Source of the DNA: Stephanodiscus triporus | Lineage: Eukaryota; Bacillariophyta; Thalassiosirophyceae; Thalassiosirales; Thalassiosiraceae | Assembly (NCBI GenBank): GCA_036939755.1 | Contig: JALLAZ010000035.1 | Span: 1 to 31,507 of the forward strand | Direction: 5' to 3' | Length of the DNA: 31,507 nt | Shown here: piece after piece, positions 23,141-28,473 of the stretch | How the letters are laid out: every line of letters starts with the position of its first letter | Position numbering within the stretch: position 1 is the first letter of the stretch | Made by a program: the position numbers and the translations under genes | Notes under the pieces: model-generated | The model's input: only the letters and a program-made list of their open reading frames with translations | Database searches by the model: none | What the model was told of the DNA's origin: nothing

Positions 23141-26100
23141 ATGATGGCGACTGCATCAACCCCAGCGACATGTCAAGTCAGCGTCGGCGTGAGGATACGC
23201 CCCCTGACGTCCAAGGAGACGAGCGAGGGCGGGAAGCGCGTCGTCGAGTGCAACCCCTTCGAAAGACGAATTACACTCTCCGGACGACACTTCACTTACG
23301 ACTCCGTCTTCGACGGGGGAGTGTCGCAGTCCGACCTCTACGATGACATCGCGCCGCCGCTCCTCGGCGCGATCTTGGGGGGGTACAACGCCACAGTTAT
23401 CGCGTACGGCCAGACTGGCAGCGGCAAGACCTACACGTGCGGGAGCGAGGCCCACGGCGCCGCCGGCGGCGGCGGCGTGGAGGACCTGAACGAAAATGCC
23501 GGATTGATCCCCAGGTTCATGTCGGACATCTTCGCGACGCTCGTGCGTCGGAAGGGGGCATCGGAGAAGGCCGCGTCGAAGTCGTTGTCGTCGTCGTCCG
23601 CCGCCGCCGGCGGCGATCGCGGCCCGCCGGCCGAATCTCTGATCGATTACGAAGTCACCGCGTCCTTCCTGGAGGTGTACGGCGAGGACATACACGACCT
23701 CCTCGACGAGGATCGTCGCTCGCTGCCCATACGCGAGGATGCCAACGGAGACGTCGTCGTCAGGGGACTGCGCGACGTGCGGGTGTCGAGCCACTCGGAG
23801 GCGATGGAGGTCCTCGATACGGGCACGATGAACAGGACGACCGCCGCGACACTTATGAACCTAACCTCGAGTAGGTCGCACGCGGTCTTCACGGTCAACT
23901 TGCGACAGACGACGCGGGGCGTCGGCGGCGTCGATGGGGGCGCCGCCTCGGACGTCACGACCACGTCTAGGTTCACGTTCGTCGATCTGGCTGGGAGCGA
24001 GAGGATGAAGAAGACCGGCGCCGAGGGGGAGCGGGCGAAGGAGGGCATACGGATCAACGAGGGACTGCTTGCCCTGGGGAACGTGATCAACGCCCTCGCC
24101 GACGAGGGACGGATGGCGCGGGGGGAGAAAATACACGTGCCGTACCGACAGTCGAAGCTCACCCGCCTCCTGCAGGACGCGCTGGGCGGGAACAGCCAAA
24201 CGCTGTTCATTGCGTGCGTGTCGCCGTCGGACACGAACGCCGGCGAGACGCTGTCCACGCTGAGATATGCCAACCGCGCGAGGAATATCAAGAACGCGCC
24301 CACGCGCAACGTCGATGCCACGGCGGTGGAATTGCAGAGATTGAGGACCCTTACCAACTTGCTGAAATGCGAATTGATCAAGCATAGGTTCGAGGGTTGT
24401 TCGGGTAGTTCGACCGTGGCGGACCCAGAAGTCGAAAGGGGTGAGGATGAGGCTGATGATCTGCTCGGCGTGGTGAGCGAGGAGTTATTACAGCGGGAGG
24501 ACGTGCTGGCATACATGAATCGGATTGATGAGAAGCTGAGCGAGTTGTCAGGTGGGCCATCTTCAAATCTGAACATGTCACTCCCGGCGCATTCGTCCGC
24601 GTTACCCCCTGGTGGAAGATCCATCCAAGTCTCGTCTACGGCATCGGTCATTGGCTCGGTGGCCAGTCCTATGAAACACGAAGACGATGGCAACGCCCTG
24701 ATCTTGGACTTCAATCCGGAGGAAGACATGCAAATCATTGACCAACTGCTCGAGCTTCAGCAACAAGATCAAAAGTTTCAGGAGGGACAGAGGGACGATC
24801 AGGACCGTTTGAACGATATGGAAGGTGAGATCGAAGAGAGCGAGTGTCGGCTGCTCCAGCTGCGGGAGCATCTTAAAGTTTATCACAGCATGAAGGAGAA
24901 GTACGAGCGTTTGATGAGCGAGGTTCAAAGTTTGGAATCCGAGAAGCAGGCGCTCGCGGAGTTGCTCGAGAAGGCGCAAGTCGACCCGACCAGAGGGTGC
25001 TCCCAGGCAATAAAGGCGAAGCTGCAAAAGGTCGAGGAAGGACTCGCTTCCGCGCGGTCGGAAACGCGAAAGACACAGCAAATGTACCGCCAGGCGGAGC
25101 AGGAGGCGCAGAAATGCAAAGTCCTCGAGCGTCAAATCCAAGAACTTAAGCAGGCGAAGGTCAATCTCATCAAGAAGCGGAGGGAGGATTCCGCGAAGCA
25201 CAAGGAGTTCACCCAGCAAAAAACGTCAGAGATTCACGCACTGAAGCGTAGGGAAAAGAATGCCGATAAGAAACTATCCAAGATGGAAATCGAGTGCCAG
25301 AAGTACAAGTCAAACTTGGAAAGGAGTAAATCTCACTGTGATAAGCTCTCCGATAAGCTCAAGCAGACGGAGATGCATCTAATGAGACTTCTCACCAAGA
25401 GGAGGAACGACATTAATCGGAACAATAAGGCCGCGCATCAATATCTGGAGGGCATGGACCAGTTTGCGCCCATGGACGACGAGGTGAAACCGATCAAATT
25501 CTTGCTAGAGAAGACTATTTTGGACAAGGTGACACTCTCACAGAATAAAAATGCCTATGAATCTAAAGTTGTTGAGCATGGGACGCTCATGGCCGCCATG
25601 GCTAAGGAGGCAAAGCGCATTTATGAGCTGAAGAGGGAATACCAATCAATGAACTCCGATGGTGTTGACGGCATTGAGGCTCAAATTCGTGAATGCGAAG
25701 ACGCTGTGCTGGAGATGCAGTTGCAAATCGAAATTCTGGATAACGATATGAAACAGCTGAAACATAAATGCCCTCATGTTGAGGACCACCTGTTCGAAGA
25801 AGTGATGGACGAAAATGGCCCGGTGTTGAAGATGATTGCCAAACTTGAGGGCCCTGTTCTTCGATCCCTCCTCTGGAATCTTATGGACTCGTACTTCGCA
25901 GCTGAGCTTCAACGACGTTCTCTTGCGGAACGCCTGGATAGGAAGTCTTCTTCTTTACAAAGCATGGAAAATGAGGTGTTGCTGCAAAATGAGAAAATCG
26001 TCTCCTTGTCAAAAAGCTTGGATCGGCGGCGCAAGAGTGTGACCTCTGAAGGTGATTCTGTTGATAAGGTCCAGAAAATGCAAAGAGAGGTGCAAACCAC

Positions 26101-28473
26101 CAATGCAAAGTTGGAATCGTACCTCGCGGACAAGATAAAATTATCGACAGAGCTGGAAGAAACACGCAGGATCCTGTCTTTGTCCCTGGTGGAGAACGCG
26201 CAAGCTAAGGAAAGACTAGCCCTACTTAATTCAGAGCAAAAACTAACAGAATCAACCGAAAGAACTGAACAGATGCTAACACAGCTGCAGGATATCCTCG
26301 CCGTGATTGGCATGACGTTAGAGAACCGGGAGGTTGTTCGTCAAAGATTGGAAAACTGCGTTGAAGATGCTTGTTCGAAAATGCTAGATGAAGCCAAGAC
26401 GTTGCGTGATGACAAGATCCAGAAGGTCAATCATCATGAGTATCAGCTCCACAAAATCTATTCCGTGCTAGGACTGGATCAACCTTCAAGTGGAAACAAC
26501 TCATCAGAGCAAAATCTAAATGGCCAGCTTGAATTCCTGGATCGACAGCTGAGCGAAATTCAACCGAAATACCTTACTGCGCTAGAATACTGCAAGCAAC
26601 TCCAGAATGATGCCGAGACATTAAGTATTGAATTGTCAATCGGAAGCGAATTAAGCAGTAACCTACAGAAGCTGATACAAGTACCACGGCGCATGCCGAA
26701 AATGCCGAAGAAAATAAGGCCCTCTACAATTTCACCACATCAACGAGTAAGCTTGGAGGCATCCAGGGAGGCCAGGGCAAAAATGCTCAGGAACGTAGAG
26801 CATATGGTAAAGGGATTGCAATCCATTGATGAGAAGATCAACCTGATAGATTATGATGAACATGCCGCTCTTAATCTAGATGAGGCGCTGGAGAACACTG
26901 AGCCTGGTAGCCTCTCAGCGTCATTTCTTGAGAAGTGCGAGAAAGACATCAAGTTCTTGAGACTACTCAAATCCGAACGACTTCTTACCAACTCTGAGAC
27001 ATGTGACAAAATCAGTGTCATTACCAAACAAATGCATATTAGAAGCGATGAACTGTCATCCATTGTTCTCAATGTTCTGAAGAAACGAAAACGAGACTCA
27101 AACTGGTGGGACGACAGTGTTGCTAAGGCAGTATTTTATGCTCTGTCAAAGAAGGGTTCTGTCCTTGTCAATGCTGCATTTACGAATCATCTGAATGTTA
27201 TACATGACACGATTCGAGATGTTTCCAAGGAAGGCGGTTGCTTTCCGATACTCTGTCAAAAGTCATACATGTAAGCCATGCTGCGTTAATAGCTACAGCA
27301 GAAGGGTGCGGCATGGATGTGGGTGACTTGGCTCAAAGCTTACGCGATGCCCTGTTGCATCTGCCTCCGCTCTCCAAGGAACATGTCAAAGCGTGCATCG
27401 ATGAAATGCAGATGCTTGTAACAGCAGCTGATTCTGTGGCTCAAAGCGAGGTGGAAACCTTAACTGTGCTCTGGGAAGGGCTAAACGTGACCCCAAGAGA
27501 CCGTGGCGAATTCTGGGGAGAACTGGATAGAAATATAACAAAAATTGAGATGAGCACAACAAGCCCTTTTGATAATCTGCTTGAAGAGTGTCCTGTAGAT
27601 ATGGAGGAGTGGGTACTTAAATCTACGAAGGATGCAATGAGAGTGCAGAGAATGCTTGGTGTTAAAGTATTCAAGCTCAGTCACATCCATCAGGAAGTTG
27701 AAAAGTTAAAACGCACACAAGAAGCGAAGAACGGAATCATGTCTTTGAATAGTGAAATAAAGCTTCTCAACGCCAAACTTGTTGACTTCGAAGAAAAGGC
27801 TGGCAACAAGCAACGGCTATTGAACAAGAAAGTCAACAGCTCATCACTGCTCGAGGAAGAGCGCTATCGTAAACAAATGCAAAGCATGTTCGCCGCTAAG
27901 CTTGAAACGCTTCGCCAAATGCTCAACGAGTGGGAATCTAATCACGGACAAGTAGAGGATGATGACATGTTGAGTGAAGTTGTCAAGAGCATGCTTCAGA
28001 ATTCTCACAGGATCGATGCGTGGATGAATGAAAAAACGAGTTTAATGCATTTGAGGACTACGTCGCTCGAATCTAAGCGAGCTAGCACTTACAAGAGGCC
28101 ATCTTCTGGCCCAGGCAGATCTTGGGATAGAACAGGAACGACAAATACTCATCGTTCCAGTTCAGCGTCAGCTACAAACAACAGACTAATAAGCCAAGCA
28201 AGCACACGTACAGCAAAATCAATGTTTGCTGGTCAAATGTCAAGGCCGCCTAAATCATTGCCACCCCCGAGGCTGAACGGTAACAATGGTACCTTATCTG
28301 AACATCAGAAGCGTAAAGCATTATCTTCCTCCGCCCACAATGCTTCACAGCCCGAGGACTGGACAAAATATACTCAACACGTTGAACTAACCAATGAAGA
28401 TGGTCCAGTGATCCTTCCCTTTGGCAATCTTGGTGATACGCCTAAAGAGAAGGAGAACGGTACACAATTTTAA
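23141..28473 (+). CDS. Kinesin-4 motor fused to a PRC1/Ase1/MAP65-like C-terminal region
   Basis: The start is ATG 23141. The motor has VGVRIRPL, P-loop GQTGSGKT (residue 90), SSRSHAVF and FVDLAGSERMKKTGAEGER. INEGLLALGNVINAL, HVPYRQSKLTRLLQDALGG and IACVSPSDTNAGETLSTLRY are typical of kinesin-4 (KIF4/KIF21). A low-complexity insertion sits near residues 100-165. Long coiled coils follow. From about residue 1045 the sequence resembles MAP65/PRC1: LQDILAVIGMTLENREVVRQ, then YSVLGL, FLRLLKSERLL and ITKQMHI. Further matches are LTVLWEGLNVTPRDRGEFW and LLEEERYRKQ with LRQMLNEWESNHG, the conserved spectrin-like end of PRC1. A basic Ser/Arg tail finishes the protein. The frame changes between 27237 and 27292. 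A 56-nt intron there (GTTGCT donor, AATAG acceptor) restores phase and gives 1758 residues, but the donor is weak. In animals KIF4A and PRC1 are separate partners at the central spindle. The stop is TAA. Confidence 0.78.

Follow-up and report, generated by a model that had tools for sequence, protein, structure and literature searches.

Can a kinesin-4 motor and a microtubule crosslinker of the PRC1/MAP65 type, two separate proteins in animals, be made by a diatom as one polypeptide? The question is raised by a gene at positions 23141-28473 of the forward strand of a 31,507-nucleotide stretch of the Stephanodiscus triporus genome (contig JALLAZ010000035.1 of assembly GCA_036939755.1), the whole of which is referred to here as the window. 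Judged by its sequence, this gene codes for a kinesin-4 motor naturally fused to a PRC1-like tail, i.e., for known domains in a new natural architecture. To the reading that the fusion acts as a one-piece, plus-end-directed motor-crosslinker, which gathers at antiparallel overlaps and sets their length, we give a probability of roughly 0.7. It is based on a motor, a coil and both ends of PRC1 standing in the right order and in one frame in diatoms and in the bolidophyte Triparma.

In the window the gene is spread over two open reading frames (ORFs) that lie in different frames, with a one-base offset somewhere within 27208-27274. ORF 1 (23141-27274, 1377 amino acids) contains the motor and the KIF21A_4th coil, while ORF 2, open over 27208-28473 (421 amino acids), contains a MAP65_ASE1 match. 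The parts are the following:

23141-28473, plus strand: whole fusion gene, 1777 amino acids if the two frames are read in turn
23192-24289, plus strand: kinesin-4 motor domain, residues 18-383 (PF00225, 334.7 bits), with the P-loop GQTGSGKT and the motifs SSRSH and DLAGSE
24752-25252, plus strand: KIF21A_4th-like coil typical of kinesin-4, residues 538-704 (PF25764, 42.8 bits, cut-off 33.1)
26267-26590, plus strand: PRC1 N-terminal-like block detected by hhalign, residues 1043-1150, by homology the dimerisation and first rod region
27208-27274, plus strand: overlap of the two frames with the one-base offset, a single frame in relatives
27676-27951, plus strand: PRC1/MAP65 spectrin block, microtubule-binding by homology (PF03999 positions 323-412, below the cut-off)
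28060-28470, plus strand: C-terminal tail of 137 amino acids, rich in serine and threonine and net basic (19 K+R, 11 D+E, 35 S+T), probably unstructured
28450-28458, plus strand: KEN-box-like motif inside the conserved terminal peptide PFGN-L--TP--KEN

The initial annotation had called the motor a kinesin-4, and this is borne out by the ranking of its PDB matches and by the PF25764 coil. The best match is 7x4n (“Kinesin-like protein”, 287.9 bits), which we take to be KLP-12 of C. elegans, a kinesin-4. KIF7 and KIF4 follow at 253-269 bits and the first family outside kinesin-4 is KIF3B, at 234 bits. The protein thus shows both marks of the family: a motor nearest to kinesin-4 motors (by PDB ranking, not by a motor tree) and, behind it, a coil of the KIF21A/KIF4 type. 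A Pfam scan of the window's proteins returned no WD40 match in the fusion protein.

The likeness to PRC1 had been noticed in a helix near the C terminus; a spectrin match does lie there, but the resemblance extends further and takes in the N-terminal part of PRC1 as well. When a profile of residues 1001-1366 (38 rows) is aligned by hhalign with a profile of 26 PRC1 homologues, from diatoms or without a species label apart from one labelled Alexandrium, the match has a probability of 95.8, an E-value of 7e-9 and a score of 73. It pairs residues 1043-1150 with the start of PRC1, which the PRC1-to-PDB alignment places in chain 4l3i of human PRC1, from approximately residue 20. Sixty column shuffles score 23.1 at most, the reversed PRC1 profile scores 17, and two other coil regions of the fusion protein score 26.8 and 17.6. 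Used as a search profile, residues 1001-1366 retrieve 40 of 52 PRC1 homologues at E<0.01 and none of 312 decoys, and the two other coil regions none of the 52. In the reciprocal direction the PRC1 profile retrieves 8 of 42 fusion rows and none of 252 decoys. By homology, an N-terminal dimerisation/rod block hence stands ahead of the spectrin block, as in PRC1/MAP65 proteins.

As to the spectrin block, ORF 2 matches positions 323-412 of the MAP65_ASE1 profile (E 6.6e-5, 22.3 bits), and 13 of 16 C-terminal pieces match MAP65 at E<=1 (best 1.1e-9; two of the 16 at E<=1e-5). Against the PDB, the C-terminal profile finds PRC1 spectrin domains (5kmg/3nrx) as its sole matches with E<0.1, and the C-terminal region thus passes at sequence level as the PRC1/MAP65-like region it had been said to be. 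The block carries the LLxEE-R-Q...WE helix of the family, a matter of homology from which microtubule binding is predicted. Taken as a whole, residues 1001-1640 align with PRC1 collinearly across 422 columns (E 3.5e-8), the middle being weak. Five relatives were also scanned at full length. Four of them, P0027, P0030, P0031 (a gene model without the motor) and P0034 (from Chaetoceros tenuissimus), exceed the MAP65 cut-off, each through two stretches of which the stronger falls within profile positions 1-238; P0026 has no MAP65 match. The C-terminal pieces of P0027, P0030, P0034 and the Triparma protein P0036 have matches that reach to 410-414, at the far end of the profile, each below the cut-off when taken alone; that of P0012 gives no MAP65 match. 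Three motor-bearing relatives (P0027, P0030 and P0034) thus match both halves of MAP65 and pass the whole-protein cut-off, and MAP65 is the sole family above cut-off in the tails of the five relatives scanned at full length.

Is this one gene or two? With residues 1200-1660 of the read-through protein as query, 37 homologues were found among 7986 scored candidates sharing most words with it, and 36 of them cross the junction in one frame and without a gap there. The sole exception, P0001, is the Stephanodiscus triporus protein with the same break, which NCBI labels “LOW QUALITY PROTEIN”; it differs from the window's read-through protein in 13 aligned columns, all but one of which lie at the junction. 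Since all but one of the homologues read through in a single frame, the fusion is one gene, as the initial annotation had proposed, and the split near 27270 that might have separated two genes was not found. Since the homologues are gap-free there, the break marks no intron and no gene boundary. On these alignments the offset is local to the assembly or the strain: either the assembly slipped or this strain has a break of its own. GT..AG pairs with which an intron could explain the frame change are plentiful on mechanical grounds, but given the gap-free alignment of the relatives no intron is needed. The frame changes of the neighbouring kinesin and IFT52 (intraflagellar transport) genes, considered as a sign of assembly errors, both look by eye like ordinary introns and so lend that idea no support.

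Altogether 41 fusion-type proteins were collected, 25 of which have the P-loop together with both tail parts. The SSRSH motor signature occurs together with the tail in 30, the remaining 11 models starting downstream of the signature. Both tail profiles are matched by all 41, but 37 of these were used to build the profiles, and P0038-P0041 are the only independent test (4/4 match). The same architecture, sought in other genomes, is thus found in a single frame in diatoms and in Triparma. Species-labelled homologues come from Thalassiosirales, Chaetoceros and Triparma; their source names, where given, read “kinesin family member/protein 4/21/27” or similar. No pennate diatom is named among the homologues drawn from the 7986 candidates, and pennates, brown algae and oomycetes may still be carriers.

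A further search, from the Parmales-type tail of P0037, returned six proteins: P0037 itself, P0036, P0038-P0040 and P0041. The last (1068 amino acids) is a distant relative of the tail with a MAP65 match of 36.5 bits and a similar DPFARVLSPT stretch, in a model without a motor; the fusion may thus not be confined to diatoms and bolidophytes. In a tree of the tails the five Parmales-type rows group together, as do the named Thalassiosirales rows, and Chaetoceros forms its own cluster, while P0041 sits on a very long branch with an unsure placement. This topology is compatible with vertical descent. Between the window protein and P0036, identity is 43 % in residues 1367-1640, the best conserved block after the motor, and 36 % in the coil (391-1000). 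In 36 of the 41 homologues a KEN motif lies among the final 25 residues (33/37 in the first set). The motif thus agrees with the conserved KEN box expected of a substrate of the anaphase-promoting complex/cyclosome, from which degradation is predicted, and its terminal position in so many relatives suggests cell-cycle turnover.

A separate PRC1 gene had also to be looked for, and one was found: a canonical PRC1 on C725 (PF03999, E 6.2e-52). Its relatives occur in S. triporus, Thalassiosira sp. AJA248-18 and T. profunda, all of which also carry the fusion. An isolated match to the middle of PRC1 at C1320:22043-22246 (MAP65, 30.7 bits) appears to be the decayed remnant of an incomplete C725 gene copy. 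A second kinesin-4 is encoded on C905; it combines a KIF21A_4th coil with a SAP domain close to its C terminus and is probably the kinesin-4 that binds chromosomes in this diatom. KEN motifs lie near its C terminus too. Among 759 ORFs in 28 loci, matches to the profiles of PRC1 or of the tail at E<0.01 are confined to the C725 locus, its fragment and the fusion, and no second copy of the tail occurs in the assembly (next match E 0.83). With a separate PRC1 and another kinesin-4 in the same genome, the fusion supplements the two-part system and does not replace it. Of the self-contained motor-crosslinker proposed by the initial annotation, the fused architecture has therefore been retained, but the idea that it replaces the separate parts has lost ground.

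How might such a protein work? In animals, PRC1 crosslinks antiparallel microtubules and recruits KIF4A, and together they halt plus-end dynamics (available text of PMC6616649 and PMC10620760). KIF4A binds PRC1 through a bipartite motif (PMC10620760, available text), and the PRC1/KIF4A ratio controls overlap length in vitro, according to the accessible part of PMC6616649. The overlap of the diatom central spindle is near-crystalline and slides when given ATP, which a pan-kinesin antibody prevents (PMC5192431). In the fusion, the PRC1 part would dimerise via its N-terminal block and the spectrin block would grip a second microtubule, while the motor would walk to the plus ends and dampen them. 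The covalent link would bypass the recruitment step and, since motor and PRC1 part are covalently joined, would fix their ratio at 1:1 within the molecule; only free PRC1, made from the separate gene, would then still be adjustable. After division the anaphase-promoting complex would remove the protein via the conserved terminal KEN. Motor direction, dimerisation, microtubule binding, location, crosslinking, sliding and degradation are all predictions from sequence, and on this basis the fused protein is likely a self-contained organiser of overlapping microtubules in the dividing cell. Its most likely site of action, given the ordered sliding overlap there, would be the midzone of the diatom central spindle. 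More tentatively, we entertain a fuller proposal to which we would not yet commit: that it builds and slides the near-crystalline overlap as a ratio-locked KIF4A-PRC1 module, was present in the diatom-bolidophyte ancestor, and might be the kinesin whose block halts anaphase B in spindles isolated from diatoms.

Several observations weigh against the motor-crosslinker reading. The spectrin match of the window copy reaches 22.3-23.7 bits, under the Pfam cut-off of 26.9, and its residues 1001-1366 taken alone have no Pfam match at all; this PRC1 N-terminal-like region also shows the lowest conservation when the window protein is compared with that of Triparma (22 % identity). The C-terminal profile is not significantly similar to the PRC1-homologue profile (hhalign probability 2.4), and the profile of residues 1367-1640 retrieves none of the 52 PRC1 homologues at E<0.01. 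The case for the C-terminal half is consequently founded on the Pfam and PDB profiles of PRC1. A longer tail profile does less well against the PDB, with PRC1 first at E 0.0017 and the coiled-coil chimera 4xa3 next at 0.0092 in a different part. The helix reads LLEEE in the window copy and LLKEE in divergent members, so that the lysine, which we take to be important for microtubule binding by human PRC1, is not conserved; R377 and K387 count as microtubule-binding residues of human PRC1, although the literature search did not find them. The window copy itself bears the frame offset, and the separate PRC1 and the other kinesin-4 could serve the midzone.

Could the likeness to PRC1 have arisen by convergence between helical coils of unrelated origin? 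The tail does look helical and charged, and single-sequence scores are weak in the window copy (E 0.18 against the PDB). However, two separate blocks match in PRC1 order, decoys, reversed profiles and the other coils of the protein give nothing comparable, and no family other than MAP65 rises above cut-off in the five scanned tails, which makes convergence highly improbable. The frame offset might instead mark a boundary between two adjacent genes, or a decayed gene, with the fusion an annotation artefact, and the break shared by the LOW QUALITY P0001 agrees with ORFs in different frames. Yet this is already largely refuted and deserves very little credence, given the single-frame, gap-free homologues at the junction and the 25 proteins that unite the P-loop with both tail parts. 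Moreover, the Triparma protein P0036 is tagged “mmetsp”, which we take to denote a transcriptome collection.

A different matter is whether a real fusion might act outside the spindle, as a kinesin-4 of the KIF7/KIF27 kind whose PRC1-like tail bundles parallel or axonemal microtubules in flagellar or interphase arrays. KIF7 is among the PDB neighbours of the motor, and IFT52 and other possibly ciliary genes share the window, although gene neighbourhood is weak evidence in eukaryotes. Centric diatoms and Triparma, the groups to which the named carriers belong, have flagellate stages, and the homologues include no pennate name; most of them, however, are without a species label and pennates may be among these. 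The separate PRC1 and kinesin-4 could cover the midzone, but PRC1-type crosslinkers are described as midzone proteins (available text of PMC5192431) and the conserved terminal KEN (36/41) fits removal after mitosis. On balance we consider a role outside the spindle, the main rival reading, unlikely and retain the motor-crosslinker of antiparallel overlaps as the preferred reading.

The rest of the window holds several possibly ciliary genes. IFT52 lies at 8772-10374 on the minus strand, in two exons by eye, and an intron-split kinesin gene at 1990-4329, also on the minus strand. Between them, ORFs at 4479-8498 on the plus strand have AAA/NACHT and weak EF-hand/nephrocystin-3 matches. A hAT-type transposase C-terminal region (Dimer_Tnp_hAT) occupies 11259-11912 on the minus strand, and same-strand ORFs up to 14055 may belong to it. 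At 18618-21443 on the plus strand, a protein carries tandem NUMOD3 motifs in its C-terminal part; such motifs are usually found in homing endonucleases.

No description of such a fusion was found in the literature on diatom and protist kinesins with PRC1/MAP65, a search that left subscription papers mostly outside. A 2006 kinesin comparison that includes Thalassiosira pseudonana reports that most diatom kinesins are short, perhaps owing to poor gene models, and the word MAP65 is absent from its available text (PMC1434745); the available main text of a 2010 survey of kinesin evolution contains neither “diatom” nor “Thalassiosira” (PMC2867816). Diatom spindles were a key model for anaphase B, yet a 2016 review still describes their motor no more closely than as “one of” the sliding kinesins, known via a pan-kinesin antibody (PMC5192431). 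A natural KIF4-PRC1 fusion would be an evolutionary statement that both proteins act as one machine. It also offers a ready test of fixing the KIF4-PRC1 ratio, and names a gene to tag or remove in culturable, transformable diatoms.

Compared with known systems, the fusion unites both components of the animal KIF4A-PRC1 midzone module, the kinesin-4 motor and the PRC1 crosslinker. Unlike these two proteins, which bind each other reversibly through a motif, it is one polypeptide with about 650 residues between the motor and the PRC1-like tail. With the PRC1/Ase1/MAP65 family (PF03999) it shares an N-terminal dimerisation/rod block, a spectrin block and a basic tail in the same order, but it bears an N-terminal kinesin motor and has diverged, the window copy falling below the Pfam cut-off. 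With the kinesin-4 family (KIF4, KIF21 and KIF7/27) it has the motor and a KIF21A_4th-like coil in common, whereas it shows no match to the WD40 repeats of KIF21, lacks the SAP domain of the C905 protein and has a PRC1-like tail. A last comparison is with DSK1, a possible relative from the diatom Cylindrotheca. To judge by the title of reference 121 in the 2016 review (PMC5192431), DSK1 resembles the proposed motor-crosslinker in being a kinesin-related protein implicated in anaphase spindle elongation.

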